64,000 nucleotides of DNA from Saksenaea vasiformis B4078 (taxonomy: Eukaryota; Mucoromycota; Mucoromycetes; Mucorales; Saksenaeaceae), in the NCBI GenBank assembly GCA_000697055.1, contig JNDT01002251.1, positions 62,001-126,000 of the forward strand. The letters run 5' to 3'. The translations under genes and the position numbers were made by a program. Positions 23,098 through 52,947 of this stretch are shown here, piece by piece; the first letter of the stretch is position 1; every line of letters starts with the position of its first letter. The notes below the pieces were generated by a model. It did not search any database and was not told the DNA's origin. It saw only the letters and a program-made list of their open reading frames with translations.

Positions 23098-23310
23098 CTA
23101 GTAGTAGGTCCTGGCAATTGGATAGGTGTATCCACCGTACATCAAGAGCATTTCGGATGTATCAACATAGACATCATGGTTACCAAAGGAACGACTAGTG
23201 ATCCAGCTCGATGATTCCCGAGACCAGAGGACTTCAAGGTGTTGTTGCGATTCGGTATCAAAGGCGATCCATTCGGATCCGGCAGCGTAAATCCATTGAA
23301 TTGCAGACAT
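23098..23310 (-). CDS. Small WWE-like single-domain protein, paralogue 1
   Basis: Intronless, 70 aa. It shares with three other genes in the window (30413-30622, 32120-32347 and 52732-52947) the pattern W-x(3)-A-x-GS-x-W-x(3)-D-x(3)-Q-x(3)-E-x-LW, then W-x(2)-S-x-SFGN-x(2)-V-x-(V/I)-(D/N) and a late Arg. The spacing of Trp, Trp, Asp, Glu and the terminal Arg resembles a lone WWE domain, a fold that in larger proteins binds iso-ADP-ribose or mediates ubiquitin/ADP-ribosylation contacts. There is no signal peptide or membrane segment, so it is probably cytosolic or nuclear. A TATA box lies about 60 bases upstream. The WWE assignment is inferred from the pattern only. Confidence 0.75.
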   Translation of the reverse strand: MSAIQWIYAAGSEWIAFDTESQQHLEVLWSRESSSWITSRSFGNHDVYVDTSEMLLMYGGYTYPIARTYY

Positions 23311-24414
23311 GCTAATAAACTTAGGTTTTTTTTTTGAGTTTTCTGTTGAAATGAAAAGAAAATCTACAGCTTATATATTGTGGAGTTTTAGGTGGAGTCT
23401 AAGCCATTATATTGGCTGAGCCAAATTTTCATTGCTCTGAAATAAAATAACTTACTGGAGTCGCATGACGTGCCTTTGGATTCAGTATCCCGCCCTGTCT
23501 CTTTTTTTAGTTACATTTTACGCGCCGACGCTGTTTTTTCCGTGTGGTGGTGGCTGAAAGGGACGGACCCTTGCTTTTGGAAAGTGACCGCTCTTGTGCG
23601 GCGATTCCACAGACACTGCATTTCATGTTGACTTGCTTGCATAGAAGATGGGAATCACTGGACAAATGATCTTGTCGTTTACTCTTTCCCTCATAGGCAA
23701 TTGCTACAACAAAAGGTACATACACACACGTGTCTGCTGCTTGTAGCCTTCGCGGTGACAAGTATGCTTCCAGATTAGACTTCTCATCATCGCGTGGCCC
23801 CCGATTTCGGGCCGACCTTTCATTTCCTCGATCAGTAATCCTTCAGGTGTCAGCCAATTAACCCGATATGCCCTTAAAAAAAACTAGACTAGAATAATGT
23901 GGCCTCAGCCTATCGATATCAATACATGCATAGCATCTGTGCAGCACAGATGCTTGCAACGAAGCTTGCAGATGGGCACTTTAAAACGCCGCGTGGACGA
24001 TAGTATGCATTTGTTAGAGCACACTATTTCTTTTGCCTTTGAGATTATGAGGATAATGCAATTTTTTTTTTTGGCGCGTCATGCGGAACGGCTTGGCTCC
24101 TATGTCCACGGACTGGCAAGGAGACCTACATTTCTTAAGTGCTCCGGAAACGATCACTTGAAATGGGATGCTGTAGCACAAATGGGATCATTTTCTGGTG
24201 ATGCCATCTGCCTGCCTTTCCGTCGATTATGTACGGCTGTGCCTCTTTTATTCTATGCACAGCATTATGTCAATAGCATCAGCCAATAATCCAATTCGTA
24301 TCATCTGGCAATCTATTTCATGATTACTTACTTACATCTACGGTGAAGTACTACGAGGGCATCGATGCAGGATTTCGAGACAAAAAAGAAAAGCCCCCAT
24401 GGTTGACTCCGAAC
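23311..24414. other. Intergenic with a possible decayed integrase-like fragment
   Basis: About 1.1 kb. The first part is the promoter of the WWE-like gene. On the minus strand near 23860-23710 a frame reads WLTPEGLLIEEMKGRPEIGG then HAMMRSLIWKHT and then GYKQQTRVCMYLLL before a stop. This resembles the N-terminal region of integrase-core (DDE) transposon proteins in fungi. It has no start and no catalytic part. The neighbouring 84-codon stretch 23761-23507 lies in another frame. I call this only a possible relic. Confidence 0.35.
23371..23380 (-). promoter_or_regulatory. TATA box of WWE-like paralogue 1
   Basis: CAATATATAA on the minus strand, about 61-70 bases before the ATG at 23310. The other three paralogues also have a TATA element. 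Confidence 0.6.
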
Positions 24415-24960
24415 ATGGACAGTCCAATGTGGGGGACAACGAAGAGGACTGCGGAAAATTCAGGCGAGATAGTTTTACTGTACAAGCAGGACGACCCACA
24501 CATGACGTCCACGGAACAAGATTATGATTTAACCAAGGCACGCGAGCTTACTGCTCCATGGAATAGCGATGCCACTTCATTTCTCACGCGTTATTATACA
24601 CTTTATAACCACCCTACTGAACCACTATACGTCCGCCAAGCGCCCAACAAGATCTGCGTCCTTGGCATCAGTCACGATCATCCAGCTCTGACATCCAAAG
24701 AAGACATCAAAGTGATTCAGCGCTTGGATTGCGGTGGCAAGGTTCTGCCTGACACAACCGTCTGCGATATAGTGGTAGGCGAAACGGTGTATCCTATTAA
24801 GGCCAGGATGCATGGAAAGCTGCTGGAATTTAATCAGCGTGCGCAGGAGCTGCTAGCAACGCGGCCACTCGATATTGGCTTTCTCGTCGTGGTGATGCCA
24901 CGGTGGGAGGATTCGACAAAACAACTGGATGCATTTGCTGTGCAGAATGCATCCACTTAA
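24415..24960 (+). CDS. ABITRAM (FAM206A/Simiate) homologue
   Basis: Single exon, 181 aa, the same length as human ABITRAM. Conserved blocks are SFLTRYYTLYNHPTE, then PNKICVLGISHDHPAL, then a GxV-rich beta region (RLDCGGKVLPDTTVCDIVVG), and RMHGKLLEFNQRAQEL followed by GFLVVVMPRWEDS. The fold resembles a biotinyl/lipoyl or glycine-cleavage-H hammerhead without its lysine attachment site. The animal protein is reported to bind actin and act in the nucleus; nothing in the sequence proves that role in a fungus. The frame is open further upstream to 24343 but the first ATG is 24415 (A at -3). The next ATG, 24505, would cut the N-terminus short. The gene runs towards the 3' end of the OGDH gene. 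Confidence 0.82.
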   Translation: MDSPMWGTTKRTAENSGEIVLLYKQDDPHMTSTEQDYDLTKARELTAPWNSDATSFLTRYYTLYNHPTEPLYVRQAPNKICVLGISHDHPALTSKEDIKVIQRLDCGGKVLPDTTVCDIVVGETVYPIKARMHGKLLEFNQRAQELLATRPLDIGFLVVVMPRWEDSTKQLDAFAVQNAST

Positions 24961-25084
24961 AGAAAATATATATAGATACACATATATTTCTTCAACAACA
25001 ACAACAACACTCAATCGCATATGCGTTGTAGTAATGATAATAATAGATGCAAAATCAAATGTAATTTATTTATGACTTTTGGAT

Positions 25085-28000
25085 TTACCAGACTGGAACA
25101 CCCGAGGTGATTTCCTTGGGGGCAGTGGGCTCACCCAACAAAGCAGAGCTCAAAAATTCATATTCTTCCAACAAGTGCTTCTTCTTGTTACCCGTTGCGA
25201 CGGATGCGGAAGGCTCGCGACCAGTGTATTTCACAGATTTACCTAGAAGAAGGGGATGAGTCACGATTCTGTATCTTTCATATGTTTGTGTATGTCTATG
25301 AACTTACCGGCATGGTGGACAGTCTGTGACAAGGAGGTGGTAATTCTGGATTGGACGTGTTGCCATGCACCCATGTTCATGGGTTCTTCTTGACACCAAA
25401 TCACGTCAGCGTTGGGATATTTGTCGGCGTGCTCCTTAACCTGCTCGTAGGGGAAGGGGTTCAACTGTTCCACACGGGAAATGGCAATGTTCTTGAGGTT
25501 GTTCTGCTCACGGGCACGCAAGAGGGCATAGTACACTTGGCCTGTGCACAGCACGTGCTTAGTGATCTTTTCAGGCGACTCAAGATGCTCGGGATGAGGC
25601 TCAGGAAGGTAGAGTTGGAAGTGGGTGTCACCAGTCATCTCTTCCAACGTGGATCTGGCAAGAGGATGACGGAGCATAGCCTTGGAGAAAGGCATGATCA
25701 ACTAAAAAACAAAAAATGATAGATGTCGCGGGTTAGCAAGACAAAGACGACTATTAGCAAAACAATCATAATAAAAACATACGGGCTTTCTGAATTCACG
25801 GCAGATCTGGCGACGGAGGACGTGGAAGTACTGGGCGGGAGTGGAGGCGTAGACGACCTGCATGTTGCAGTCTTGGTGTTGGCGAGAAAGCTTCTCGGGC
25901 GAGGGGTAGACATATGGGTTGTCGTCGCACATTTGGAGATAACGTTCAATTCTGGCAGAAGAATGCTCAGGACCCTGACCATCATAACCGTGGGGAAGGG
26001 ACATCACCAAGCCGGAACGCTGGAGCCACTTCTGTTCACCTGCAGAGATGAACTGGTCGACGATGCACTGGGCGTTGTTGGCAAAGTCACCGAACTGAGC
26101 TTCCCAGACAACCAAGGCGTTGGGGTCGACGAGGGAGTAACCAAGTTCGAAACCAAGGACACCGAATTCGGACAGAGAAGAGTTGGAGATGGACAAAGCA
26201 CCCTGTTCAGGGGAGATGTGGTTCAACAAGGTGTACTTGTTGGCAGATTCCTGGTCGTGCAAAACGGCATGACGCTGGGAGAAGGTACCACGCTCGACAT
26301 CCTGACCAGATACACGGACGTGCTTGCCCTCCAAAAGCAAGGAACCCCAAGCCAATGATTCGGCAGTGGACCAGTCGATATCCTTACCGTCCTTCAAATT
26401 CTTCTCGCGGTTGCTGATGATACGCTTCAAGTTGCGGTGAACGTTGAAGTTCTGGGGAAGGGTGGTCAAGGCCTTGCCAACCTGGTGCAAGGTTTCCTCG
26501 GAGACACCGGTGGGGAAGTGAGGAAGGTTCTCCTCAGCCAACTCCTTGGGAGACTTGAAACCTAGCACATTGTATTCAGCACCTTTGTGCCTAACTTATG
26601 ATTTTGTGTAAACTTACCAGGCCATGAGCTGGACAACCATTCACGTGAGGTGGGCTTGTAGTCCTTGCTCTTGGAGTAGCTCTCTTCGAGAATTTCCCAG
26701 ACGCGCTTCTTGTTGGCGTTGATCTCCTCCTCAGTGAAAGTACCTTCCTTCTTCAACTGTTCGGCGTACTTCTGGGCAACGGGCACCTGCTTGGAGATGG
26801 CTTGGTACATCTTGGGTTGGGTGAAGCTGGGCTGATCGGTTTCGTTGTGACCATGCTTTCTGTAGCAGACAAGGTCAATAACGACATCTCTGTGGAAGGT
26901 CTGACGCCAGTCGGCAGCAAGCTGCATAACGTAGGTCACGGCTTCAGCATCATCACCATTGACGTGGAAGACGGGAGCGTTGATGGACTTGGCAATATCG
27001 GTACAGTAGGGGGTGGAGCGACCGTAGCGGGGATCGGTGGTGAAACCAATCTGGTTGTTGACGACGATGTGAATGGTACCGCCAGTGGAGTAAGCAGGCA
27101 AGTCATGGAAGCCCATGGTCTCGTACACAACACCCTGTCCAGCAAAGGCAGCATCACCGTGCATCAAAACGGCCATAGAGTGCTTTCCTTCGGTATCGTT
27201 GCTGTAGTACTGCAAGGCTCTGGTCTTACCGAGCACAACGGGGTCGACAGCTTCCAAGTGAGAGGGGTTGGCGACCAACGAAAGGTGGACACGCTTGCCA
27301 GAGGGAGTAGGGCGAACGTAGTTCATACCAAGATGGTACTTGACATCACCAGAGCCTTCCTCGGAGGGAGCAAGGGAACCGCTGAATTCGCAGAAGATAG
27401 ACTCATTGGGCTTGCGGACAACGTTGCTCAAGACGTTCAAACGACCACGATGGGGCATACCAATGACAATGGATTCGACACCCAAATCGACGGAGCGGTC
27501 AATCTATATAGAATTTTTTTTCCCTCAGTCAAACGTCCCGTTTGCTCCTTCTTAACAGTACTTACCATGGCCTTCATACCGGGAATGAGAGATTCACCAC
27601 CTTCGAGACCAAAACGCTTTTCGGAGGGATACTTGGAGGCGACGAAACGCTCAAAGCTGTCAGACCAGGTAAGACGGTCCAAAATCATACGCTTCTCTTC
27701 GACAGAGAACTTGTAGGGTTGAGGGTTCTCGATACGCGAGCGAATCCAGTCACACTGAGCACGGTCGGGAATGTGAATGTATTCAATACCGATGGAACCA
27801 CCTTTCAAAAAAGAAAAACAAATGACGTTTAGAAACATGCACATGCGCACAGACACCCCATACACACAACTAACTCTAAACTATATACAACCGGGCTCTT
27901 GCGATTACTTACAGTAAATCTTTTGCAACACGTCAATGATTTCGCGCAAAGTCAATTCCTTGTTAGAGGTACCGAGAGCGGGCAAGATACCAGGACCAAG

Positions 28001-28573
28001 GGTGAACTTTCTGTCAAGATCCTTGTCAGTGAAACCATAGAAGGAATACTGGAGCTCGGGAGGCGAGGAGTGCTTGAGGTCGGCATGCTGAATACCCAAA
28101 GGATCCAAATTGGCAATATGGTGACCGCGCACCTGATAGGCTCTCACGAGAAGCTGAATCTTCATATGGTCAATAACTTCCTTGGACGAAGCATTAGCAG
28201 GATCGGCAATGGTAGCACCTGGAAGATCGGGAAGACGAGCACTTGCGGAGGGAACCAGGGTAGGAGGGGGAGTGTAAGCTTGGGAGGGAGGAACACCGTT
28301 GGCCATGTTCTTGAAGTAGATTTGCCAAGACAGATGGACACTGGAGGGCTCTCGTAGCCATGCCTCGTACATCTCTTCAATATAGTTCGCAGCATTGCCC
28401 TGTAAAAACACGTCGTTGGACTCGGGAGCAGTCTTGGTAGAGGCCAAGCGCGCCTTGCCAGTATGGAATGAACCCACTGACGCAGGAGTTCGGACAGCCA
28501 AAGGTTTGACTGTCTGTGGAAGATGCCGAGAAAGAGGTCGAGCGGCACGAGAGAGCGCCGTCAAGCGATACAT
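25085..28573 (-). CDS. KGD1: 2-oxoglutarate dehydrogenase E1 component, mitochondrial
   Basis: Six exons: 28573-27913, 27801-27566, 27503-26618, 26561-25783, 25701-25308 and 25242-25085 (introns 56-111 nt; 1037 aa; yeast Kgd1 is 1014 aa). It has a basic, Ser/Arg-rich mitochondrial targeting N-terminus ending near [11 protein letters not shown]. An E1 N-terminal segment follows ([17 protein letters not shown]). The thiamine diphosphate domain contains [38 protein letters not shown] and [18 protein letters not shown]. The transketolase-like second half has [20 protein letters not shown] and [12 protein letters not shown]. The enzyme decarboxylates 2-oxoglutarate in the TCA cycle and passes the succinyl group to the E2 lipoyl domain. 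Codons are strongly biased to C/G-ending forms, as in highly expressed fungal genes. Identification is secure. Confidence 0.97.
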
Positions 28574-30412
28574 GTTTGGACAAAAAAAAAAAAAAGAAAA
28601 GAGTGGGGTAAACAGGAAAAACACACGGGCGCAAACAAGCGTACTAAAATAATAAAAAATTGTTGTGTTGCGGTGTATTCCGATTTTCAATCTCCATTCA
28701 TTTGTTCACCCTCATTTTGCAGTGATGAATCGGGTAAATGTTTGCATAACTTTAAAAACGTTTTTCCCTACTACATGTACAAGAAGTTGTTCGTTTTATT
28801 GTTCCTTCTTCTATTTATGCTATTTTTTTTAACGTTTTAATTATGTCAACCAATGTTGCCCTAGAAACGCCACTTGTCACTTTTTTATCCCCTACAAGAA
28901 CACCGACCGATTTCAACCCCGGCTAGCAAACACATCCCGTAATTTTCCTTGGTTAACCGGACTGTTCCCTCTCTTCTTTTTTTTTTTTCCGGGGTTGCCC
29001 TTCACTTCAGCATTCATGTGACTGCATCGGATCCCAATGCCTTCGATTCCGATGAAGCCGTTCGCGCCAAGGGGACAAAATCATAGCCAATCAAAGTAGC
29101 AGAATAACCCCCACCTCATGGTGAGTACTTCGATGGAAAAGAAAACATTTCCTTTTCCTTAGGCCATCATGTTCGTTTATTTGCTTTCTTGATAAAATTG
29201 TGCATCATCATGATACTTACCTGTGCTCAAACAGTTTAGCAGTGGTAGAAGAGCAGTGGCAGCCATCTTTGTTGAGTTCATTGTCTCTGTTGCACGTGTT
29301 TGAACGCGACATATTTTTTTTTTTCATGTGGCGCTACGAATTTGGTCACTATGGAGAATCCACATGGCCAATAGGATTGGATTAGTTGTTTTGCTACGAC
29401 AGAAAGTTATTTATGTACGTCAGATCGTGAAGAATGACGGTAAACAAAGCTTACCCTATGATTGGCCCCAAAAGATGATCTCCCTGGCTTCCAATTGATC
29501 AGCGTTATTTATAAAGAATTGTCGGTTTCAGCTTCTGTTATTCAATCTGCCTTTCTTTTTAAAGGACCGTTCTCCCAATTCTTTTTTTTTTCTCTACTTT
29601 CCGATAAAAAAAAAAAAGAAAAAAAAAGAAAAAAGAAAACGGGTTTTCACTATTCAGTAAACAGCGCACAAAAGTGTCAACTAAGTGACGTCTAAAACCA
29701 GCACATGGAAACGGAGGAGGAAGATGTCAAGTTCTGAAGCATAAGACACATGTAGATATTTTACGTAACGGAACAAATCTCATGGGAGTAGTAGTATATT
29801 ACATGATATAAGATCATCAGCAACAAGAGATTACGTATACATTACTGAGTCTAAGGGAGGAAGAAAGAAAGATAAGGAAAGCTGTGTTCCTGAGGTCGAT
29901 CATTTATGAAAAGAACAATGAAATGATGTCAAGTTTAACCGATTACCTCTTGAGGAAAATCTCCGAATAAGCGAGACAACGGCTAAAGAACGATCGATAA
30001 AACTCTTCTCCTCTTCCCCTTCGTCAATGACTTGTTGATCGACAATTTTTATTGTTTGTTCTTCTTAGGAGGCGGAAGTCAAATATTTTCTTTTTGATTG
30101 TATGAATAATGACCATAGAAGAAATAGAATTTGGCATAAGAAGCATAGACTACCATAAAAATAAATAAATAATAATAGAATGTATGTTCACGATGGTAAT
30201 GTAGAGAATGGCGATGATGGTGATGATGACGTTGACGATGAGAATGACAAGAATGCAAAGCAAAATTGATATAAGTTAAAAGAAAGCAAAAACAAAGTTT
30301 GACGTGCCGGGAGGGGGACTATGTACGTTTCGTGTGAGGGTGAGCCTTTTTCTTGATTTTGGTTTTTTCGGTTTTTTGGTCTGTACAATGATGAATGAAA
30401 ATGCTGCAAGTT
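28574..30412. other. Intergenic: OGDH promoter side and 3' side of WWE-like paralogue 2
   Basis: About 1.8 kb. The first few hundred bases should be the promoter of the OGDH E1 gene. At 29312-29221 (-) an ATG-led stretch ends in a perfect CACAG|GTAAGT donor, so it may be a 5' exon, coding or leader; no partner exon could be fixed. A-rich and T-rich tracts at 29580-29640 and many AT-rich bases up to 30412 look like 3' UTR. Confidence 0.4.
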
Positions 30413-30622
30413 TTAAGCGTAAATCCGAACGATGCAATATGCGGAGCCGTTGCATATCAATGTTAATTCGGATGTGTTAATGTAGACATGTCCGTTGCCA
30501 AACGTGCGGCTCACAATCCAAGCGGCGCCTTCGCAGAGCCACAGATGCTCTATTTTTTGCTGTGTTGCTGGATCTAATGCCACCCAACAAGAACCGGAAG
30601 CGTATAGCCATTGGACGTGCAT
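30413..30622 (-). CDS. Small WWE-like single-domain protein, paralogue 2
   Basis: Intronless, 69 aa. It starts MHVQWLYASGSCWVALD, then has QQKIEHLWLCEGAAWIVS, RTFGNGHVYINTSE and a C-terminal IVRIY. It is the closest in length to paralogue 1 and shares its central W..S.(S/T)FGN..V block. Only the N-terminal two residues and the Gly/Ser turn before the last strand vary much, so the gene encodes one compact domain and nothing else. A TATA box and a long CT-rich leader (30650-30690 as GA on the plus strand) precede the ATG. Function unknown. Confidence 0.76.
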   Translation of the reverse strand: MHVQWLYASGSCWVALDPATQQKIEHLWLCEGAAWIVSRTFGNGHVYINTSELTLICNGSAYCIVRIYA

Positions 30623-30667
30623 AATTAATGTGTAGCTATAGAATAAAAAGAAAAAAGAAAAAAAAAA

Positions 30668-30690
30668 GGAGAGAGAGAGAGAGAGAGAGA
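30668..30690. repeat. GA/CT microsatellite in the leader of WWE-like paralogue 2
   Basis: Uninterrupted (GA)n of about 11 units, which is CT on the coding strand, between the TATA box and the ATG. Pyrimidine-rich leaders are common in highly expressed fungal genes. Confidence 0.8.
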
Positions 30691-30740
30691 CAGTTGAATG
30701 GAAATGAAGGGAAGAGGTAAAGAAAACGACTTCTTGCGTC

Positions 30741-30750
30741 TTTTATATCG
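30741..30750 (-). promoter_or_regulatory. TATA box of WWE-like paralogue 2
   Basis: CGATATAAAA on the minus strand, about 120-128 bases before the ATG at 30622. Confidence 0.6.
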
Positions 30751-31288
30751 CTTTTCTCTCTATTAACATTTCTTGCCGTGTCCGTCTTTCTATCATAATT
30801 TCCGCGCCACTAATCTCTCCTCGTGAATACGCACAACTACCCCTATTCTGCAAAAAGATAATTTGTGGCTGGCAGTCAACAGGTAAGGAGGCACACTTAG
30901 TTTGTTCGATCGCAAGTAAAGTATGACAAAGGTCCCCGTGGTCAAAAACCCTGTGTGTGTGTTGGGGGGTCAATTCCATCACAAAGCTCGCCAATGAAAT
31001 GATGCTTGATGATTGTCCATTTTCGGCCTTATCACGGACATAAATCTATTCAGAATAGAGAAGACCGACAAGCTGAGGGGAAAAAGAAAAAAAAAAGCAT
31101 TCCTGTCTTTTCTCAAGTTTATTCTTTTCTTAAAAGAAGCTCATATGTTCGCGATTGCGACTTTTAGGCTAGGTAGGAAATCGGAAGAGATGCAGAGGCT
31201 TCTTACAGAAATCAATGGCCAGCCAACCGGAATAGCCAAAGGGAATAGCCATACCGGAAGCAAACCGATGCTGAATCCTTTTTCTTTT

Positions 31289-31327
<39 letters not shown>

Positions 31328-31940
31328 TAGCTATTGGTAAAAGGCGCTGTTGAGAATGATTCACGTCATAAACCAGCAGCCAGGAAGAATAACTGTGACC
31401 CATAAGGAAATCCTTCAAAGTAGGACAGGATGTTGTCATCCAAAATTAAAATTTTAGAGTTTTGACAACCAAAAAGAGCTCATAATAGGCTTCATAGGCT
31501 CTGCCAACACATGTCGACAATTATTACGCCACAACTTGCTTTTCCTTTTTGCTTTTGTTCTTTGATTGTTTATGCTTCACAATTATGACTTTTTGATTTT
31601 GACCTATGATCTATGCACTGCATTAAGCCTTCATGAGGCGCAGCTTTCTGGTCATCGTGCCACGGATTAGGGTACAACAACTTTGATGTGCCCTAAAGAG
31701 TGCCACCCGCCTAATGCAAAGGAAAAAAAAAAAAAGAGAAAAAGGAAAGAAGGCATAAGCATTTGGCATTGATCCTTCTGCAAGACGACGCCGCCAGCCA
31801 AGTTAGATCACTAGACACTGTGCAAATATAGTATCTTCAATGGGTGGCCAACTAAGGACACTATGGCTCTCCTACTTCTGAAAGCTTTTCGCGGCACCAT
31901 TTTGATACATTGTATCTACGTTGGCTGTCCTGATAATGCT
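30751..31940. other. Region between two divergent WWE-like genes
   Basis: Divergent promoter space of paralogues 2 and 3. It holds a run of 34 T's (31291-31324) and short frames without motifs. No third gene is supported. Confidence 0.45.
31291..31324. repeat. Homopolymer run of 34 T
   Basis: An unbroken T tract preceded by T-rich sequence from 31278. It could be the A-tail scar of a retro-inserted sequence on the minus strand, but no such body was identified, so it may be simple slippage. Confidence 0.8.
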
Positions 31941-31950
31941 GCGTATTGCT

Positions 31951-31960
31951 TAATATAAAA
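31951..31960 (+). promoter_or_regulatory. TATA box of WWE-like paralogue 3
   Basis: TAATATAAAA about 160 bases before the ATG at 32120, followed by a C/T-rich leader. Confidence 0.6.
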
Positions 31961-32119
31961 GCATCGAATTTTCTTCAAATCCTCGCTCTTCGTTAAGTAT
32001 CCTATATTGGCAATTCTCCTTCTACACAAGTCCTCTAGCTCCCTTTACAAACGGATTGTCCAATTGATTTCAGTCAAAAAATTACTCTAATTACCTTCGC
32101 AAACAAATCCATCAAGAAC

Positions 32120-32347
32120 ATGCAAAAGAGAACGCAACAAGTATTCTGGAAATTCGCTTCTGGCTCTTGCTGGGTGTGCTTCGATCCTGACACCCAAAGA
32201 ATTATCGAGCAGCTGTGGTTCTCTTCTGGCGCGTCCTGGGTGGTCAGCCGCTCTTTTGGAAACCAGGAGGTTTTCGTTGATCCAACCCATGCACTCTTGA
32301 GGCTTGCCAATGGCGCTCAATTCCCCATTGTGCGCACTTATGAATAG
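32120..32347 (+). CDS. Small WWE-like single-domain protein, paralogue 3
   Basis: Intronless, 75 aa, with a slightly longer N-terminus (MQKRTQQVFWKFASGSCW) than its paralogues. Conserved positions are all present: GSCW, FD, TQ, IEQLWF, SWVVSRSFGNQEVFVD and a final IVRTY. It is arranged head to head with paralogue 2, about 1.5 kb apart, which suggests an old inverted duplication. The leader contains ACAAATCCATCAAGAAC directly before the ATG, similar to the A/C-rich leader of paralogue 4. Function unknown; a WWE-like fold is inferred from the residue pattern. Confidence 0.76.
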   Translation: MQKRTQQVFWKFASGSCWVCFDPDTQRIIEQLWFSSGASWVVSRSFGNQEVFVDPTHALLRLANGAQFPIVRTYE

Positions 32348-32912
32348 CTGTAGTGCTATACTTTCTTTTCCCTTCCTCTAGCACACATATATTCCCTTTT
32401 ATTATTATTCATTCTCTTTCCTTTCATCAGCGCACACATGTTTTTCTTTTCCTCCTCTTCCTATGCTCTTTCTTTGTACGTCCTTTTTTTTTCTTCTTCT
32501 TCTTTTGTATGCCCCTAACAGGTCTCTATGTTAAAACGTACACGCTTGCTATTTTATGCTTCCATTTTATGTCTTAAAACAACTTTATGCTAAACAATAA
32601 ATAAGCTGGGTATATGATCTCTCTATCCGATGATTCTGTACAGTTCAATAAAGTTGCTTGCTTAGTCTTTCTGTACTACATTCTTTCTCTACGACGCCAG
32701 ATTGCTCAGCTTCCTGAGCTTCCTCAGCTCTCATGTCATCGGGTCCCCAAAGGCACAAATAATTCAATGCACGTAGCAAATCGTTACCCACTTTTGAACA
32801 AAAAAAGAAGTTTTTTTTTCCTCTATCGGATTTATTTAACCTAGAAGATAAACAAGAGTACAGTTCCATCCTCCAAAAAGAAATACACACAGACACACAC
32901 CCAACAATCCAT
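32348..32912. other. Convergent 3' region
   Basis: 565 bases between the stops of WWE-like paralogue 3 (+) and the uS7 gene (-). T-rich tracts and an AATAAATAAG at about 32597 fit polyadenylation of the plus-strand gene. No gene is seen. Confidence 0.5.
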
Positions 32913-33698
<786 letters not shown>

Positions 33699-37194: not shown

Positions 37195-37241
37195 TATTAC
37201 AATTGACAAATCACACACTCTCTTTGTCGAATGGCGTAGGC

Positions 37242-37242
<1 letters not shown>

Positions 37243-37283
<41 letters not shown>

Positions 37284-39666: not shown

Positions 39667-39789
39667 TAAGGGAGGCTGAACGGACCAATCAATTTTTTTT
39701 CCCGCTCTTTCCCGCTCAGAAAAAAAAAAAACATAATAAAATTGCTGGTATTTTCCATCTTCTTGTAACTTCCCTTCTCTCCCGTTTCC

Positions 39790-39939
39790 ATGTATTCCCG
39801 TTTGACCCGTCTGGCTACTCTTTCAGCCTTTTCGCAAGTTGGCAAGAAGTTCGTCTTCTACTCGGGCGCAGGTGCACTGGTCTATGCTTACGTTCAAGAA
39901 TGCAAGGACGACGTACTCTTCTATACCAAAGCCAATTAG
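39790..39939 (+). CDS. Small (49 aa) single-membrane-span protein, probably mitochondrial
   Basis: A short ORF reading MYSRLTRLATLSAFSQVGKK and then FVFYSGAGALVYAYVQECKDD, ending FYTKAN. The N-terminus is basic with Arg/Ser/Thr and no acidic residue, like a matrix-targeting or inner-membrane signal. One hydrophobic segment follows and then a short acidic/aromatic tail. This layout is that of small accessory subunits of respiratory complexes or ATP synthase, but no specific subunit was recognised. Codons are optimal (GGC, ACC, CGT, AAG), and a C/T-rich leader ending TTTCC precedes the ATG. Those two points make me think it is real despite its size. Confidence 0.55.
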   Translation: MYSRLTRLATLSAFSQVGKKFVFYSGAGALVYAYVQECKDDVLFYTKAN

Positions 39940-41130: not shown

Positions 41131-42940
41131 CTACCACGGTTGTGCAGGGTTGACCATTTCATCGGTGGGGAATCCTGTCCTGTTGCCACTGTTATTGTTA
41201 TCTTGTTCGGTTCCTTCCTGTTCAGATTTTACAGGGCGGTAATTGACCGTTGTTTGCAACATGGAGACCATAGGTGGCGCATGCATCTTGTTGTTGATTG
41301 CATACGGATGATGGCGTGGACTCCCAATACGGCCAGGGACACTCATAAGTAGACTGTTCCGACGTGCCGGAGGTGGCGAAAGAATGGACGAGTTGTCCAG
41401 ATCACCCGAATTAGAAGAGCCATACCGATCCCTGGTATCTGTCATTTTGTAGCCCGAGAGTTGTTGAAGCGAAGACCGTTTGAGATTGGGTGAGCTAGTT
41501 TCCGATAGATCTGCATCTGGGGTGTGTTGTTAAACTGACGTATTCTTTCTTTTTTAAGTTTCCTTAACTTTTTTTATTTTTATTTTATTTTATTTTTTTT
41601 TACTTACCATCTTTTGGTGCAGCAAGGTCTTGTTTCGATGTAACCTGTTTCTTTGCTTCATCGACAGAGGGAGGTTCATAGTACATATTCTTTGAAGAAG
41701 GTATACCATGTCCATGGTAGGAATCGCCGACCAAACCACCGACGGCAGCTGTTGCGGTCGATGAAGGTGTGGATCGATAATCCATCGATTGATAGGAATT
41801 GTACATATCATCCATGGAGGAGCGATATACTAGGAAGAGAATGAATTTTCTGTATGAATAAATAAACCTATACCATGTTGCTGTTGACCTAGAGTGTCAT
41901 GATACGAATTTGGATCCCATGAGGACACGGGTGGTCGGAAGGCGCTAGGAACAAATCGGTTTGATCCCATAGGATGGTGATGGAATGGCGAGGTGTACAT
42001 GAACATGCTAGGATCATCTGCAAACAACGGGTAAAGAATATCTTGAATCTTATACTGGGAAGCTAATGCCTTGGCTCGAGTGAAGGTGATCCTGCCATAC
42101 AAAGTTTAGACGGTGGACTGTCGAGATAAGGTCAACCCTTACCATACGCCTTTGAGATGCATTGCTCCGACCTTCACGACGACTCGTCCCTTTTCGTTTT
42201 TGAGGATGCCATCTCGTTTGCCTCGCGACATGCCTGCCACATTTAGCAATTTGGTGCCGTTGACCATATCGTTGTCTAGCAAAAAAAAAAGAAAAAGAAA
42301 AAAGTGAGATCAATTTGCCAAGGAGAGAAAAAGAAGAAATTTACCTTGTCTTCTTGCAACGCAGATTCCTTTGGCGTCGACCTGGTAACAGAGCGTTGCT
42401 TCATCTTCCCATAGCGTTGTCGTTAGCTTTGGTCGCGGGACCAACCCATGATTGGATAGATAGGACAGACCGTAGGAGTTGGACGAGTAATGATGATGCG
42501 AAGACGGAGTGTGATAGGCGTCAGTATTTTGCTGTGTTGTTGTTTGTGGCACAAAATAGTGCGGCGAAGTGTATGTAGCTGCAGTTGCGCTCATTGGCGG
42601 TGATGTGGGAGTAGGTGAACTCATCAAACTATTGGGTTCACTGTTGTTGTTGTTGTTGTTGGCAGTTACGGTGGCAAAATCTTGCTGTTGTTGCTGCGGT
42701 TGTTGCGGTTGATGATGTTGATGCCATCCTGAAAAAAAAAATCCATTTTTTTTTTCAGTCGGCTTTTTTAAACTTATTCTTTGTCTTACCTCCGTAACCA
42801 TGATAAAGCGATGGCATCGATGCTGGTCTTCCAAGTGCGTGAGGGCTCGTCTCAGCGCTGCTGTTGTCATGTGGTACCTTCACCTGCGGGTGATGTTCAT
42901 AATGATAGTGTGGCGTCTGCGGAGAAGGGTTGGGATACAT
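41131..42940 (-). CDS. APSES-family transcription factor (StuA/Efg1-like)
   Basis: Six exons: 42940-42790, 42728-42345, 42275-42143, 42091-41874, 41829-41608 and 41516-41131 (introns 44-91 nt; 497 aa). A Gln/Asn/His-rich N-terminus precedes an APSES DNA-binding domain of about 100 residues. Diagnostic parts are [76 protein letters not shown] and [14 protein letters not shown]. The domain is spread over three exons and reads through perfectly. StuA, Efg1, Phd1 and Sok2 bind DNA as basic helix-loop-helix-like factors and control morphogenesis, sporulation and dimorphism. No ankyrin repeats follow, so it is of the StuA type rather than the Swi4/Mbp1 type. The upstream region is unusually long and microsatellite-rich. 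Confidence 0.92.
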
Positions 42941-43389
42941 TACGCAAAATAGATTCTTCGTTCCTTCTTTTTCTTTTTAGCCAGTATCAAATGAGAGAAA
43001 TAAGAGATAAAGAGGACAAGGTCTTTTGATCTGGCGAATGGTTCAGTGGCGTTGGGGTGGTGAGAAAACACACTATAACAAAAAAAATCAGTTGTAAAAG
43101 AAAAGGATATATACAAGCAAAGAAGAACAAAGCAAAAATAAAAGAAGATATTATTATTATTATTATTTTCTTGCAGGAGACAGGGGATAGGAGGCGGCAG
43201 AAAAAAATGCTAAAATGAAGAAGTAGATTTAAAGATTAAAGAAAGAGAGAGAAGAAGATTCTTTGGTGCCCAAGGGTTTCAAGGGGTGGGATACAAGGGA
43301 GAAAAGACCAAGGAGAGAGAAATGAACTTACGTCTTTTCCTATAGAGAAAAAGGTGATAGGACGCGCGCGTAAAGTTGTATCTGTTCGA

Positions 43390-43425
<36 letters not shown>

Positions 43426-44722
43426 TTATGCGTATTTATATAAATGACCTCTCTGTGTGTGAGTGAGCGAATATGTGTGCGTGTGTGTGTGGGGGGTAGT
43501 GTGAGTGAGTAATATATGTGTGAGAGTATAGATATATAAACTGTGTGTTTTTTATATGTATGTCACGTAGATCGATAAGAAGCAAAAGAAAAAGAAGAAA
43601 AAAAAAAGGTAAGTGATCCTGCTTTTGGTACTTATACCCCTTGTCTTGATGACGGTGAAGCAACTCATGGACCTGATGATGTCAGGTGGAAACAGCTTTT
43701 TTCTTTTTCTTGTCTCTCTTTTTTTTTTTTTTTTCCTTTTTTTCGCTTTTTTTTTTCTTTTGATGGGAGAAGCCGGCATTGCCGCCCCGGTGAGTGAGAC
43801 TCTAAATGACAGAATTTTAAATATGGCTAATCTGGGCTCATAGGACGCCATAGCGGTCGTAACATAAAAAAAAATGGGAAAGAGGAAAAGAGAGAGAAAG
43901 AAGGAAAGTGAAAATAGAAAAAAAAACAGACAGAGGCAAATCCGTAACTATGGTCACTGCCATGTTATGCACATTTACGCTCGCTCTCTTTATGCAATCG
44001 TCGAATAGCCTACAGGAGGCAAACCAAAAAGGGGGGAAGCAACCGCACAAAATAAGGGTCCAGAGAAAGACGCAACGCTTACAAGATAGATGGATATAAC
44101 TGACGGATAGATCGGCATAATGAACTACTCGGTTAGTGGTTTGCCTTTTGAATAGCCGAATATTTTTTTTTCTTTTGGGTTTTTATGCAAACACAAAAAA
44201 AGTTTCCCGGACCGAGAAGTTTAATTCATCCATGTCATACGCACAAACAAATGCAATCTTTTTATGCAGAGGAGTCAAAAAGAGACTGTTTAAACCTGCA
44301 TCAGGGCAATAATCTCTTGTCTCCCACCGAGAATTACCTCGCCACCCTGACCACTGATTCAGCTAGCGAAAAGGGGGAGACCAAGTAACCAAAGCTGGGG
44401 TTTGGGTTGTACGTTCGTATTAGGGAGAAACAATCGATTCTCCGATCCCCTTTCTCTTACATTTTTGTTGTCACTTACACTTTGATTGTATGACAAAAAA
44501 ATTGAAAACCATCAACGAAAGACTGTTGCACTTTGTGTTGCTGCCAAACTAAAACTATACACTGTTGAGAAAAAAAAAAGGGACGGTAACCAATCCTTGT
44601 TCCCTAGACAACGTCTGCTTTTTTTCTTTTCTTTCCTTTCTTTACCTTTTTTTTTTTTACGTAACTTTTTTTTTCTTTTCCTTCTTTTTTTTCTTCTTTT
44701 TTCCTCATTTGAATTAGGAACC
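42941..44722. other. Long shared promoter region of the APSES and MIT-domain genes
   Basis: About 1.8 kb between two divergent genes. It contains TTA repeats (43149-43167), a TA microsatellite (43390-43426), GT-rich stretches (43456-43510), long A/T tracts and, next to 44723, a T-rich leader. No coding exon was supported. Large upstream regions are usual for StuA-type genes. Confidence 0.5.
43390..43426. repeat. TA microsatellite
   Basis: About 18 TA units with one interruption in the promoter region of the APSES gene. Similar TA runs occur at 21995-22015 and 53180-53200. Confidence 0.85.
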
Positions 44723-47187
44723 ATGAGTCATGACGCATTACCCTTGTCACCAATGATACCTGATACTGTTTGCGCGTCTCCATCATCTTCACCAGCAATG
44801 CCCATTCCACCACAAGCATCATCATCATCATCGAGGCATTTGTCGAGAGTCATCTTGCGTACTGCACTTCAAAAAGCAAATTCTGCAGTCCTTTGCGATT
44901 CATCCAACGACGTTGCGGGTGCCATTGACGCATATACCGAGGCTATTACTTTACTCAACCGAGTGTTGGAAACAGTCGAAAAGGAGAACGACCGACGGCG
45001 TTTACAAGAAATTGTGAGTTGAAAAAAAGGGACAGGCGTTTTCTCCTTACCCTTGTCTATTTATAACACGCGAAAAGAAGAAGAAAAAGAGAAAAAGAGA
45101 AAAAAAAGGAAGAGAGAAAAGAAAAGAGAGGGAGAAGAGAAGAGAGACAGAGAAGAAAGAGAAAGATGGAAAGATGGAGAAAAAAAGGAAGAAAGGGGAA
45201 GAATGCAAGCCGGTCTTCTTGCATAAAATATAAGCTGATCTTACCTTCTTTTTTTTTCTTCGTTTCTTAGCACGATTCATACTCGGAACGTATACGATTG
45301 TTAACTAGTCTTTCACCAAAATCTGAAGATAATGATCCATACGAAACATTCGACGACAATACGCCGACAGATCCGAAATCATCATGGTTGAACAAACCCG
45401 CTAAGCGGAAATACTCACGTAGTAACGGTCAGCCATCTCATATTCGACGCACAACTTCCACGTCTTCTATTGATAGTCTGATCTCAGTGGATCTTAAGAA
45501 TTCACAGGATATATCGCTCATTTCACCTCCACCATCTGCTCGTTCTGGAAGAACCTTCGGGTTTGCACGGGTAGGTCAACGGTCCTCTCCACAACCTCCA
45601 CCTGGTGTACTCCAGCCTTCTAAAAGTACCCCGGTGCAAACCCGTCCAATTGTTGAACGTGAAGCTAAACGACGGAGTAATGGTTACACCGATCTACATA
45701 AAACCCCACCACCTCGACAAGGTTCCATTGTAAACACCTTAATTCTCGACCAGTCAAATCGCTGTAACTCAACCTCCTCTTCCACCTCTACCTCCTCTTC
45801 TTCCTCCTCGTCATCCTTATCAGATGAAACTACCGTCACTGTGCAGCCAACCATGGCCTTACCCCCTCTTCTACCGCAAAAACAACAAGATACACCTCAG
45901 AAAAAGGAAAATGACGAAGATGAGGAAGAAGAAGACCAAGAAGAGGAAGAACCAAAACCTCAGACAGCCATACGCGTTCGCACCAGTAGCTTACCAAAAT
46001 TGCAACTTGCTCGCCCATCGACACCCGTGACTGATCGGGAAGCGACAGCACGTCGGCTTCCAATGCAGTCTCCGCCGCAAAAACAACCTGACCCACCACC
46101 TCAGCTGCCATCTGCCACCGCACGTCAAGGTAATGGTCTAGGCAGTATGCGAAAAAAAGCGAATAGACTGTCACGATCGAGTATGGATGGACTACCCCGT
46201 AAAGAAAAAGGCCAACTCATTTTCGGCCTGTTCATGAAAGACACAATGTCACCTCGTTCAACTGCCTCTTCTTCCTCCTCTTCCATAGACTATTTTTGCA
46301 CGAGACATGACAGTAGCATATCACATCCCTTAGGCACGAGTCAACACCTTCAGCTGATCCTTTCGCTTGAACGAAGTATGGTTCACGGGGGCTATGTTAC
46401 ACAAAAACTATACATACCAAAAAACATATGGTACAACGTCAACCGACCATACCTTCTTTGACTCATTGCATCTGATAGGCAACAACCTAATATTCGATTG
46501 CCATCCATCGATGTCAAAATGGCAGCATGTGAGACATTGATGGTCGACTTGTCACGTTTGGAAAACTGGACGACTTTGGACAACGTCACCGAGAGCTTGA
46601 AACTTGTTCAGCTTTTAGAAGACACTGTCGACCTTCTCCAAACAACTATATCCAAAAAGTTGAAACGTGATAGCATGTCTGATCATTCACCACCCACACA
46701 ACATGCCCATGAAACAACAACAAAAAAATCCCAAACCTTCATGGCGTGGGGTACCAAATTGACTAAATCCGTGGAGCGTATGAATGCGTTTAGCCTGACG
46801 AAAGCGTAGGTGACCCCAAACAAACAAAAAAAAAAGCCTGTGGAATAATCTCTTGGCTAAAAATGGTAACCATAGGGAAGACCAGTACCGTCATTATACA
46901 GAAAACTTGCAAAAATTATTCCTAAAAACGCATGTCCTGGGTAATGTAGCTGGGAACTCCCTATCATTGCCTCCACTCATCCTTCTTCTCTTGTAGAGAC
47001 CTGGATCCAGTACTATACAACTATGAAGACCGAAGAAAACAGTCATCCTCAGTGCACCGTCGTTCTTCAAAAGTTAACCAAGATTTGCGACATGATCAAC
47101 TTGGTTGTTGGTGGCTTTGTGATTCGCGATGTGGCCGTCCTTCTTGGAAAATGGCTAAAACGTGGTGGATCATGGGCCAACGAATGA
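44723..47187 (+). CDS. MIT-domain protein
   Basis: Five exons: 44723-45013, 45271-46430, 46479-46805, 46876-46940 and 46997-47187 (677 aa). Residues about 45-110 form a MIT three-helix bundle (ILRTALQKANSAVLCDSSND, VAGAIDAYTEAITLLNRVLE and then HDSYSERIRLLTSL across intron 1). MIT domains bind ESCRT-III tails. A long Pro/Ser/acidic linker follows. A conserved C-terminal module includes LYIPKNIWQQPNIRLPSIDV, KMAACETLMVDLSRLENW, KSVERMNAFSLTKAEDQY and GGFVIRDVAVLLGKWLKRGG. The 65-nt exon 4 restores the frame between two otherwise incompatible exons. Splicing at 46431 removes an in-frame stop. Intron 1 is 257 nt and nearly all purine, much longer than the others. Probably an endosomal or cell-division protein; the role is inferred. 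Confidence 0.82.
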
Positions 47188-47299
47188 TAAACCCCATTTA
47201 TTCAGCCTATTTACTTAATTCTACAAATAGTATTTATTCTCTTTCTGTCTGTGTGTGCGTGTTTTATGCTTGCAACTTTTACAAAATACACTCTCCCTG

Positions 47300-47403
47300 A
47301 AAACACTTAAATTTTCAACGTAGCATGAAACGTAGAAGAGCAATGAAACTTCTTTCAAAGCTGTAGAAGTCGGCAAAGAAACACGTTTATGCTTTTATTT
47401 TTC
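47300..47403 (+). repeat. Fragment related to the subterminal part of the Tc1 element
   Basis: Aligns by eye with 14897-14998 of the Tc1 element: both have AGAGxAATGAAACxxCTTT, then AAGxxGxxAAA and TTTATGCTTTTATTTT. Identity is roughly two thirds. No terminal repeat is left, so it is an old fragment of a related element. Confidence 0.45.
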
Positions 47404-48011
47404 AGAGCCTTCGGAACTGTAGTTGTCATGCAAAGCAGATTACCTTAGAGCCTGCCCTAAATTTTTACTAGTCTACGGTTGTGTAACATACATAGTCCTT
47501 AAGATAAGCGCGTTGTCAAGTTCTCCAGTCCCACGTTGAACGATGTTTACACTGCTACTTTATACAAATTCTTCTCCAAAGAACTATCCTTTCCAGCGCA
47601 GTTTTATTAGTTGTTAACTGTTGGTCAATTTGGAGAAACGCTCGACCATCCCTACCAAAACAATCGGCGATACCTGCGAATAACGCTCTTTCTGATATGG
47701 TCATCATTTGGGAGAGGGCATGATCAGCCACGCATTTTCTTTTCTTATTTAACACTGTACTTCGTCTTAAATTCCAGGTTGTGGAAGAGGACTTTATAGC
47801 TCACAATGATGATGGGAGACGATTCCGATTATGCAATACCGAATCTCCGACAGTGTGTAAGCAAAGATGGTTACCGTACGCTTTTATCAGAACCAGGTTT
47901 CACATTGCAATATGAGATGCATATATACTACTACCGCAGGTTACGCTTTGCTATACAGCGGGAGGTGTAATTTTTATGGTTTATTAAGGATGATGCAAAA
48001 GAATTCATTTG
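47404..48011. other. Convergent intergenic region
   Basis: About 600 bases between the MIT gene (+) and the folylpolyglutamate synthase stop (-). Only short frames without motifs are present. Confidence 0.45.
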
Positions 48012-49829
48012 TTACTGAGGCGGGATACCAAGTACCGTTAACGTATTGCCCACCATGATCAGACTACCCGTTGTCAGAACCTGGACTTTTCGATCTCCAT
48101 GATTGGCATGGTCGATAACCCATTCTACAGCGTCTTCAATCGTTGCAACCGTATGTACATTCTTTTCATTGAAGGAAGGGACAATCTTCGACCATGTCTC
48201 CACCAACATTTTCTGTGTCTCTTTGATTTCTTCCGTAGAGACCCCAACACTGGTGTTATCTATAGCAACACCCCCTTTTAGTTTTTCTCTTTTCTTACTT
48301 CTTGTCTTCACTCACCTGAAGAGAAACCACTTCGGAAGGTGATGTTCGTGGTAAATACAACATGGTCAAATGGCATGGACGCTACTGCGCCCAGAAGCCT
48401 TTGACCGTCACGGCCATGTGTACAGTTAAAGATGAGAACACGCGAAGCGGATTGGTCTGCAAGAGGAGTGAACCAATCAGCGCACACCTGCAAGCTTTCC
48501 AGGGTATGGGCTCCATCCAGGTACCACAAAACTTTCTGAGAAATGCGGTCACCATACTTTGTCTCACCAAGATCCAGTTGTTGACCACGTCCTGGCCAAC
48601 GAGCTTGTCTCAGCCCTTCGACAAACTCGGCAGGTACCGCATCTGAAGACACACTTGTGCTTTTACATCTTTCTAGCCATAATCTGCACAGAGCAATGGC
48701 CACCAAAGCGTTATATTTTTGATGTGTTCCTGCCAAACCTAGGATGCCTGTCAAAAATGCCAACATTCCCACTCCCCTTTCTTTCTTTCTCTTACCCATC
48801 TCAATGTTTCTTAATGCATCTGCTTGATCCGTATGCACGACTGTCAAGGGAGCCTAACGAAAAAAAGGAAATGAGCAAACTACTGCTTTTTTTTGTTCGG
48901 TACCTCTTTGTCTTGTGCTCTCTGCTTAATGACTGCCAAGGCCTCGGGTGCTTGATCGATCGATACGACCGGTACATGTGACTAACCCAGTTCGTTGTCG
49001 TATCTTATGATATGATCTCCCTTTTACCTTAATGATACCGGCCTTGTGCCAGGCGATCTTGTCGATCGTATCGCCAAGCACGCTCACATGATCCAAACCC
49101 AGCGCTGTGATACCGCAAACGACGGGTCGTTCGACGATGTTGGTGGAATCGTACTCTCCACCCACGCCCACTTCCATGATGGCAACGTCCACCTTTTCTT
49201 GCATAAATGTATGGAACGCTAACAGCGTGAGATAGCGGAAATAGGTAGGTTTGTCAGGATGGGTTCTCGCGTCTTTAATGTCTTTCTTTTCATCAGCTAC
49301 TGTCAATGCTTTCTGTTTCGTGTTTTCCAGTCGTTCCCAAACATCCTGTGAGTATTTTGCAAATTTCTCTTCGCTGATCGGGCGGCCATTGATTCTGATT
49401 CTTTCGCGTACGGCGACCAAATGAGGTGAAGTAAATAGGCCAGTTCGCAGTCGTGGTTTATCTCCCGTAGGGAAATGCTCCAGTATCGATTGTGTCAAAG
49501 CGCAGGTAGATCCCTTGCCTTTTGTCCCAGAAACGTGGATGATATTCAAAGCATCAAAATCTTTCGTCTGAGCAAATCACGCGGATTAAGCAAATAGCCA
49601 GGGGACATATCAAAACACGCTGCTACCTCATAACCAATCCTTCGAACATATTCTCTCATTTCTGGAAGGCTAAAGTCATTCATTCTTGGACCAGCCTTGC
49701 GTAGTTGCTGGAGAATCGATGCATTGGTTTGCAATGAGTTGAGTTTTTCAACAGCTTCCTAATGGGGACATGAGTCTCTTTCGCATGAGCAGCGTGACGA
49801 TGGCACTATACCTTGTATGTAAACGTCAT
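48012..49829 (-). CDS. Folylpolyglutamate synthase
   Basis: Seven exons: 49829-49812, 49758-49627, 49567-49028, 48981-48904, 48853-48796, 48747-48316 and 48259-48012 (introns 46-59 nt; 501 aa). It begins MTFTYKEAVEKLNSLQTNAS. The P-loop reads NIIHVSGTKGKGSTCA, followed by FTSPHLVAVRERIRINGRPI, VDVAIMEVGVGGEYDSTN and ALGLDHVSVLGDTIDKIAWHKAGIIK. The C-domain has WYLDGAHTLESLQVCADWF and VLTTGSLIMVGNTLTVLG. The enzyme adds glutamates to folate using ATP, which retains folates in the cell. Intron 48748-48795 is exactly 48 nt with no stop, so skipping its removal would insert 16 residues; the family ending of that loop (MGILGLAGTHQ) supports splicing it. There is no long mitochondrial leader in this start. 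Confidence 0.93.
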
Positions 49830-52635
49830 GGTGGAGTAATGACGAGGGTATGCTAACAATCTCGGCCTTAGTAACAAGAAAGTCATAAACTTATAGGTCC
49901 CAACACACGCCAAGCGGCGATTTCGGAGGGTGTGTCACAAAGCGATCTTGCAATGACAAGAAGCTATTGAACCCCGCCTACTGATGCCAAGCCACATACT
50001 CGCCGTAAATCTCAACTATCGCGAACCGCCAAGGATACGTACTACAATCCATATCACGACAGAAAGACGCTACCGTTGCTTGCTGAGATGTAATGTCCCC
50101 GTTTTTGGTATGAAACGATGAACAGTTTGATTTTGATGCCGATTGCTTTATCCCATTTTCAAATTCCGAAGGAGGAATGTAGATGTCGCATTTGATTCGT
50201 CGATTTGATCTGTCGCAATGCTGATGATCAACCTGCTCGTTAACGCATGTCCTGTTTGTGTACACATGGTCAGTCAACTATTCTTTAGCAGTTCTTTATC
50301 AAAATAACTTTTATATCATTTACAATGACCATGGTTTTACGGTATGACTTCCGTTTCTGACGCGATTGAGCAATATTTTGCTTGACTATGAGATGATGTT
50401 AGTTAGACATGGCCATAAACCATATCTCGTTACACAAACGCTGTATTGAACATTGACTTTCATATTTTATTCTTGATGCACAAGTATCTTCTTCTAAACA
50501 CTTTTGTATGGGGGTTAAGCCCAAGCGATTTCAAATTCTACTACTGGCTTTAACTTTTCCGAAGAGCGCCTTGAACAGTTGCTTGAAAGAAGAGAAATTG
50601 GAAGGCGGAAGCGTCGGGATACAGAAGAATACCATTAAGCTAAAGTGCCAGAAAGCTTTCGTACGGACAGTAGCGAACAGTTGAATGAGTGTCTATCGAA
50701 AGTCATCAATAAAGTGTAATACTTCAGATGTAATGAGAAAGTTCCTGAGTCAACTGGCTATAGTTGGCATAATTTGTAGCTGATGGTACAAAAGTGCCTT
50801 TTAAGAAATGCGATGAGAAAGTGATGTGTCTATTTATCACATTGACGGTTGAAACGTTGTTATAAGATGTCCCTCTTTTGCGATGCGAAGCGGACTCGCT
50901 CCTTAAACAGTGAAATAGTATTCACATAGGTTATATCCTTTATAACCTTTACCGTGCTATATCATGCAATGGATGAAGGTTATCGTGGAACCCATACGGT
51001 CGCTGCCGTATTCAAGGCACGTATGTCCTATTCACGAGATTGATCCGAGAAATAATAAAGGGCGTGATTCTTCTCAGAATGATAGCGACGCGTAGACTAG
51101 TTTACTTTTCCGTCGTAGATAGGAGTCTGCAGAAAATCCGAGATTACTATATCGCAGCTGCGGATCCGTAAGCTATCCGATAATGCGATGCAGGTTTCCC
51201 CCGGTGAACCCTGACGTCAGATCATAGGATGGATCTGCGCTAGAGGATGAGAGCCTCGATGTAGGGGAGATTACCTACGTCAACGGTCATAGATATTTAT
51301 CCCGCAATAGCTGCATTCGCTAACATCAATAAATCAGTGAACAGCCGTGAATTAGGTGTTATGCGCAGGCTCACGATCCAAAACAGCATATACCGCCAAG
51401 GTATTGCTTTGTGATCTATGTTTATTAACTGATTCTAGAGCGTGGACCAGTATCCTCCCGTACAACAAGGAGCAAGTTAAAATCATAGTGCTACGCACAT
51501 ATGCTTGGCTGCAGGGCGCTCTAAACGCAGTGACTTATCGCATTACCACCCGTCATGTAGTTGTATCAAAGTGAACTCATTTGTTCGTCATAGCATCGGC
51601 TATCAGACGTACCGATTACATTGTAGCCATAAGGCGTCGACGTGGAGAATGGATGAACAGATCCATTAACAAGGAGTAATTTTTATGCAAATACAACTCT
51701 AATACTCTCAATTGTTCTGAGATCGCTACGAACGCTCGCTGAGATCTGGTATCCTACTTGCAAAGCGATAGACGATTAGGTTCAAAATCCGCCATGCTCT
51801 CGTGATAGTCTTAGATCGTAAGAATGCTTAACTGACCTCTTGCTACGCATTAGAAGTATGTCTCTTTGGGTAAATAAGAATATTCCAAGACCTATGAGCT
51901 GACCAAGCATGATTGCGACTTTAATTTTTTTGTTCGATAAGCTCTTTCCGGGATCTCACCGGAGATTAAAAATTCTCGTATCATGGGCCTTTGTACACAG
52001 ATACATCGTTGTGTACGCTGGTGTATGTAAGAAATCACACTCTCATAGTAAAGCACAATGACATTCTAACGTAGAACTGTCTCTATCCTGAGAGAAGAAG
52101 ACAAAATAGAGGACATGATTTTTTGACATGTCAGCCTTGTCCTACTTACTGGTAGAGGAGGAAGTGTACGGATGGACAATTGCAGTAATGATATCATCTT
52201 GTGTACCTTTGCCAATGTCTTCGGATTTTGACAGAGATGACAATGAGTACGGAAACAATTCCGAAAAAGAAAAAAACAGGGTTTGCGAATGGTCTCCGAA
52301 AGCTACGCGGATCCGATTGGTTCGCGTTACCCAAGTGCCACTGTGGCGAGAACATCTTGGCTTTTTAGTCAATGTGCACACACACACAAAATCGCTGTCT
52401 CTCAAGTGGCGCTTTGCCTTTTTACGGCAATTGATTGCCTTCCTTTGTTACACACTCCCTGACTTTTTGTTCTTTGTCTCTTTGCATTTTCTATCTTCCA
52501 CTAGTGTTGTTTACTGCTCAGCGTTCTTGGTGAAAATCGTACAATGCACTTTATGATTTCATTGGCCTGCTAGCGTCTTGTCACTTGTCTTCGTGACAAT
52601 ATACTCCTTGGCATCCTGTCGCGATTCAGTGTATA
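49830..52635. other. Gene-poor region, about 2.8 kb
   Basis: No gene could be supported. A plus-strand fragment near 50540-50640 reads FSEERLEQLLERREIGRRKR before a stop and looks like eroded coding sequence. The open stretch 52128-52556 (+, 142 aa) overlaps the upstream region of the next gene and has mixed, non-coding-like composition. Confidence 0.45.
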
Positions 52636-52640
52636 TATAC
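52631..52640 (+). promoter_or_regulatory. TATA box of WWE-like paralogue 4
   Basis: GTATATATAC about 95 bases before the ATG at 52732. It is followed by an A/C-rich leader with AACAACAAAACAATCAAGAA-type sequence typical of strongly expressed fungal genes. Confidence 0.65.
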
Positions 52641-52731
52641 GTGGAAGACGTTCCGCCAATTCGACTGCATTCAATACAAATCAATCAACACGTCTTCATC
52701 ACAACAACAAAACAATCAAGAACCTGAAAAA

Positions 52732-52947
52732 ATGATCGCTGAATGGGTATACTCCGCTGGTTCCTGCTGGATCGCCTTTGACCGCACCACTCAAGAAAAG
52801 ATTGAAAAGCTCTGGTTCAATGGATCCGACGGTTGGATCGTCAGCCCCTCCTTTGGCAACAACCAGGTCCACATTGACATGTCTCAATTGCTCTTGACAA
52901 GCGACAGCGGCTCCGAGCACTTTATCATGCGAAGGATCCAAAATTAA
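52732..52947 (+). CDS. Small WWE-like single-domain protein, paralogue 4
   Basis: Intronless, 71 aa. It starts MIAEWVYSAGSCWIAFDRTT, then QEKIEKLWFNGSDGWIVSPS, FGNNQVHIDMSQLLL and a late MRRI. It is the most diverged in the C-terminal strand but keeps every shared position of the family except the aromatic before the last Arg pair. Codons are the most biased of the four (ATC, GCC, GGT, AAG, CTC), which with its TATA box and A/C-rich leader points to high expression. An AATAAA lies about 170 bases after the stop. Function unknown. Confidence 0.78.
   Translation: MIAEWVYSAGSCWIAFDRTTQEKIEKLWFNGSDGWIVSPSFGNNQVHIDMSQLLLTSDSGSEHFIMRRIQN

Follow-up and report, generated by a model that had tools for sequence, protein, structure and literature searches.

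The window analysed here, a 64,000-nucleotide stretch of Saksenaea vasiformis B4078 (contig JNDT01002251.1, positions 62,001 to 126,000, forward strand), contains four small intronless genes, W1 to W4, whose products are, on the evidence of predicted models, free-standing WWE-fold proteins made of one half-barrel cup over one helix. The WWE fold normally lies inside large proteins, recognising adenosine diphosphate (ADP)-ribose tags. All four open reading frames (ORFs) proposed by a sequence-only reading of this DNA are indeed open over the following coordinates (lengths in amino acids, aa; pLDDT, predicted local distance difference test; AF2, AlphaFold2):

23098..23310, minus strand: W1, solitary WWE gene, 70 aa; Pfam WWE 23.0 bits against a cut-off of 21.1; AF2 pLDDT 93.9
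30413..30622, minus strand: W2, solitary WWE gene, 69 aa; Pfam WWE 14.3 bits, short of the 21.1 cut-off; 48% identity to W1
32120..32347, plus strand: W3, solitary WWE gene, 75 aa; Pfam WWE 17.5 bits, short of the 21.1 cut-off; 44% identity to W1
52732..52947, plus strand: W4, solitary WWE gene, 71 aa; Pfam WWE 22.4 bits, above the cut-off of 21.1; 43% identity to W1

The four proteins can be aligned end to end with 19 invariant columns, and this, together with identities of 43–48% to W1, a nonsynonymous rate (dN) below the synonymous rate (dS) and an 87%-identical 70-aa relative of W1 in Apophysomyces ossiformis, upholds the earlier claim that they are a related family and not chance ORFs. 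Over the six W1–W4 pairs dN is 0.38–0.58, while dS is 1.5–2.6 in four pairs and saturated or not computable in two. A genome search whose copy counts are lower bounds (assembly of 38.7 Mb, 666 contigs) added two mini-genes, on contigs C273 and C521, giving at least six in total, in line with the expected multiplicity; the same six genes were recovered with three different queries. In this six-gene set 7 of the 15 pairs yielded a dS value, and dN/dS was below 0.5 in all seven, at dS values (1.5–5.0) that are near saturation. A weak seventh copy on C648 (1119–1235 of the extracted piece; E 0.149), given by only the first of the three queries, lies about 1.1 kb from a contig end and contains two TGA codons in frame; it is possibly a decayed gene and was left out of the count.

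Three protein searches (E threshold 10, admitted lengths 0.55–1.75 times the query) returned 39 relatives, the weakest at E 3.7e-19; because of these length limits larger proteins with a WWE domain could not appear among them. The nearest named relatives belong to Apophysomyces (order Mucorales), and 21 of the 39 carry fungal names, from 14 genera in all: Apophysomyces, Backusella, Parasitella, Phycomyces, Mucor, Sporodiniella, Pilaira, Choanephora, Blakeslea, Mycotypha, Hesseltinella, Umbelopsis, Rhizopus and Cunninghamella. Two genera were looked up, and the others belong to Mucorales. The mini-proteins are thus conserved across Mucorales and in Umbelopsis, and the fungal family foreseen from the sequence exists. 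A scan with a single peptide pattern gave no viral match, and none of its 12 prokaryotic matches was confirmed as a relative. In a tree of 45 rows (the 39 relatives and the six own genes) and 66 columns, W1 clusters with A. ossiformis and Apophysomyces BC1015 (98/81), the C273 and C521 proteins cluster with two Apophysomyces entries, Phycomyces and Hesseltinella (97/81), and the Umbelopsis type stands separate (100/98). W2, W3 and W4 are united at 88/88 with their placement unsure, and long branches lead to W3, W4 and one other row. The W1 line and the C273/C521 line are kept in other species, and W2–W4 would be faster-evolving duplicates.

Identification of the domain draws on Pfam matches and predicted fold together. 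Against the curated cut-off of PF02825, W1 and W4 score above and W3 and W2 below, as do the C273 and C521 proteins (19.5 and 15.8); 40 of the 45 family members match at E ≤ 0.1, and five of the 45 give an additional weak match to XPB_C, with E 0.0033 at best. In the 45-sequence alignment W6, G11, W14, E26 and F42 are invariant, so that the two tryptophans and one glutamate that define the WWE domain (W6, W14 and E26) are present in every member, and the motif W-V-Y-A-S-G-S-x-W is almost invariant. The AF2 model of W1 has the WWE fold, and the predicted models show the six-strand half-barrel, covered by a helix, of the WWE domain. The best Foldseek row has an E-value of 0.0017, with none at or below 0.001, and PDB searches that used family members or profiles as queries yielded nothing below E 0.09, several non-WWE proteins appearing at similar values. 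Since a profile comparison with RNF146 reached a probability of only 27%, over 46 columns, the evidence for the fold rests on the predicted models. The one-domain build also holds: W1–W4 are ORFs of 69–75 codons with no other Pfam match over the cut-off, and no RING, HECT, Deltex or PARP catalytic domain is joined to the WWE domain. Elsewhere in the genome, a 304-aa ORF on C443 (1264–2178 of the extracted piece) has one Pfam WWE match (28 bits) and, by eye, a second WWE-like stretch.

The residues that line the ligand cup distinguish this family from the WWE domains that read poly(ADP-ribose) (PAR). According to PMC11269756, a conserved Gln in WWE readers pairs with adenine, and the proximal phosphate is bound by a Tyr together with an Arg; in RNF146, Tyr107 confers specificity for iso-ADP-ribose, and the distal phosphate is held by Arg110 and Trp114, with Lys175 outside the domain. 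Among the 45 mini-proteins the Tyr107 site (column 8) is Tyr in 44 and Phe in one, the Arg110 site (column 11) is Gly throughout, and Trp is found at the Trp114 site in none. We take the RNF146 residues in the Tyr, Gln and Arg roles to be Tyr144, Gln153 and Arg163. The first of these sites (column 48) holds Tyr in 37, Phe in seven and His in one of the 45, being Tyr in W1 and W2, Phe in W3 and His in W4. At the Gln153 site (column 57) there is no Gln among 44 residues, one of them the last residue of a partial entry; the column reads Met 11, Leu 11, His 7, Thr 5, Ile 3, Ala 3, Ser 2, Asn 1 and Phe 1. Likewise no Arg is present among 42 residues at the Arg163 site (column 63: Tyr 30, Phe 7, Met 2, His 1, Val 1, Leu 1). 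The register of the front part follows from the RNF146 profile comparison (probability 27%), which is gapless over Y8–Y107 and G11–R110. It also matches Y48 to Y144 and E53 to E149, so that column 57 would fall on Q153 provided that the alignment continues without a gap; residue 70 is aligned with residues 170, 1683 and 834 at the ends of three structural alignments, so that column 63 corresponds to R163, R1676 and R827. Net charge is negative in 30 of the 45 proteins, zero in five and positive in 10, compared with +3 for the RNF146 domain. Judged by alignment, the PAR-contact residues appear to be replaced by a conserved lining of mostly aromatic or hydrophobic residues (Y8, Y/F48, mostly M/L/H57 and mostly Y/F63), which argues against the earlier suggestion that these proteins bind ADP-ribose. 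The same change at the Arg site is found in the WWE domain of PARP14, a diverged domain described in PMC10450202 as devoid of PAR binding.

Each of the four genes has a TATA box upstream of its ATG:

23371..23377, minus strand: TATA box of W1, TATATAA, 67 nt before the start codon
30741..30747, minus strand: TATA box of W2, TATAAAA, 125 nt before the start codon
31954..31960, plus strand: TATA box of W3, TATAAAA, 166 nt before the start codon
52632..52638, plus strand: TATA box of W4, TATATAT, 100 nt before the start codon

With the C273 and C521 genes included, six out of six have exactly one TATAWAW within 300 nt upstream, at 64–166 nt, and the claim of a TATA box before each gene extends beyond the window. 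The motif lies at 50–180 nt in three of 36 ATG-started window ORFs of at least 100 aa, a rough control that contains false starts and exon pieces, and in 5.3% (150 bp) and 7.0% (200 bp) of random window segments; by our own arithmetic the chance of all six mini-genes falling among the nine TATA positives of 42 is 84/5,245,786. Biased codons had also been claimed. The G+C content of third codon positions (GC3), alone a crude measure of bias, is 0.50, 0.52, 0.56 and 0.68 in the four mini-genes and 0.65 and 0.62 in two pieces of a dehydrogenase gene; it gives no sign of strong codon bias. The possible high expression proposed earlier is left with the TATA boxes as its sole basis, GC3 giving no support. 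The contrast with intron-rich neighbours agrees with the ORF map for the single neighbour examined, a 2-oxoglutarate dehydrogenase gene (identified by eye) that is split over at least five stop-to-stop pieces in that map, which is drawn without gene models. Pieces of a Tc1/mariner-like transposase, recognised by eye, lie in several frames at 15004–16086 of the window on the minus strand.

Bare WWE domains are thus a real conserved family in Mucoromycota, with a cup that is apparently rebuilt, and to judge from its residues the family is most likely a non-PAR binder or adaptor. The cup would no longer read PAR and would instead hold another ligand, for which a stretch of protein or a small molecule other than PAR is the most likely candidate, with the conserved YASGSxW loop and the aromatic cup making the contacts. 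Lacking an attached enzyme or second domain, such a protein would serve as a soluble adaptor, or as a decoy occupying a partner, and the TATA promoters would make its expression conditional and strong. We give an even chance to this best overall explanation, in which free-standing WWE proteins with a rebuilt cup take a non-PAR ligand as adaptor or decoy; the fuller proposal of a Mucoromycota-wide family rebuilt for a non-ADP-ribose ligand, a reader or adaptor without described function that is TATA-controlled and locally amplified, we put somewhat below that. Several points tell against the best explanation. The pocket residues were assigned by alignment and not from coordinates, and the hairpin between columns 57 and 63 is unlike that of RNF146 in length, the profile alignment ending before it. 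Two pocket tyrosines are kept, so that weak binding of ADP or adenosine triphosphate (ATP) is possible. Five Umbelopsis-type sequences are net positive and carry an Arg at the residue preceding column 63, the lining varies between members (W4 has His at 48 and 63, the C273/C521 type M, V or L at 63), and net charge is a crude argument when 10 of 45 are positive.

A rival view, which takes up the ADP-ribose binding suggested by the sequence-only reading, is that the mini-proteins continue to recognise ADP-ribose, ADP/ATP or PAR and compete as free proteins with PAR-dependent ones. The WWE fold and the retained equivalents of Y107 and Y144 speak for it, and the ligand may exist in this fungus: one gene of its genome (C429:7001–13000) matches WGR, the PARP regulatory domain and the PARP catalytic domain, and C357 has a macro-domain match. 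The PARP gene also shows ankyrin-like repeats by eye. We consider such reading unlikely and do not prefer it, because of the missing contacts in the pocket, to which the mostly negative charge may be added. A copy of the mini-protein occurs in Phycomyces nitens, while its congener P. blakesleeanus is reported in PMC2964712 to be without PARP, a comparison that would count against a general PAR role; the same paper describes PARP as patchy in this order. According to PMC4245714, no PARG was detected in Mucor circinelloides or Rhizopus delemar, and our search of the Saksenaea genome for PARG, which returned nothing, carries no weight because 14 control genomes were equally blank. Alternatively, the mini-proteins might be detached subunits, each of which docks in trans on a large partner, an E3 ligase or another protein, that itself lacks a WWE domain. 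WWE domains occur in six human E3 ligases (PMC11269756), and a genome search with the Pfam model gave a single WWE locus, the 304-aa ORF on C443; this search was insensitive, however, missing the four window genes, and we regard docking in trans as improbable. That the ORFs are non-functional or unexpressed, as the possible decayed copy on C648 might hint, is very hard to credit, given that relatives sharing invariant residues occur over Mucorales and in Umbelopsis, that dN lies below dS in the pairs for which dS is computable, and that starts and TATA boxes are consistent.

WWE domains have been studied mainly as PAR readers within large proteins. Literature searches, judged by titles, abstract starts and passages and with subscription papers mostly outside their coverage, found no published account of solitary fungal WWE proteins. 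Here the bare domain is the whole protein and its cup apparently lacks two key PAR contacts, offering a clean small system for other WWE ligands. Entries of Mucor, Hesseltinella and Umbelopsis named ‘WWE domain-containing protein’, a source-given name in at least four of the 39 relatives, are members of the same family (65–98 aa). The WWE domains (PF02825) of RNF146, HUWE1, TRIP12 and DTX1 are parts of ligases, whereas the mini-proteins stand alone at about 70 aa, share 11–19% identity with them and have, by alignment, the adenine Gln and the phosphate Arg replaced. The WWE domain of PARP14 (PDB 1x4r) lies within a large multi-domain PARP, unlike the free-standing mini-proteins described here.
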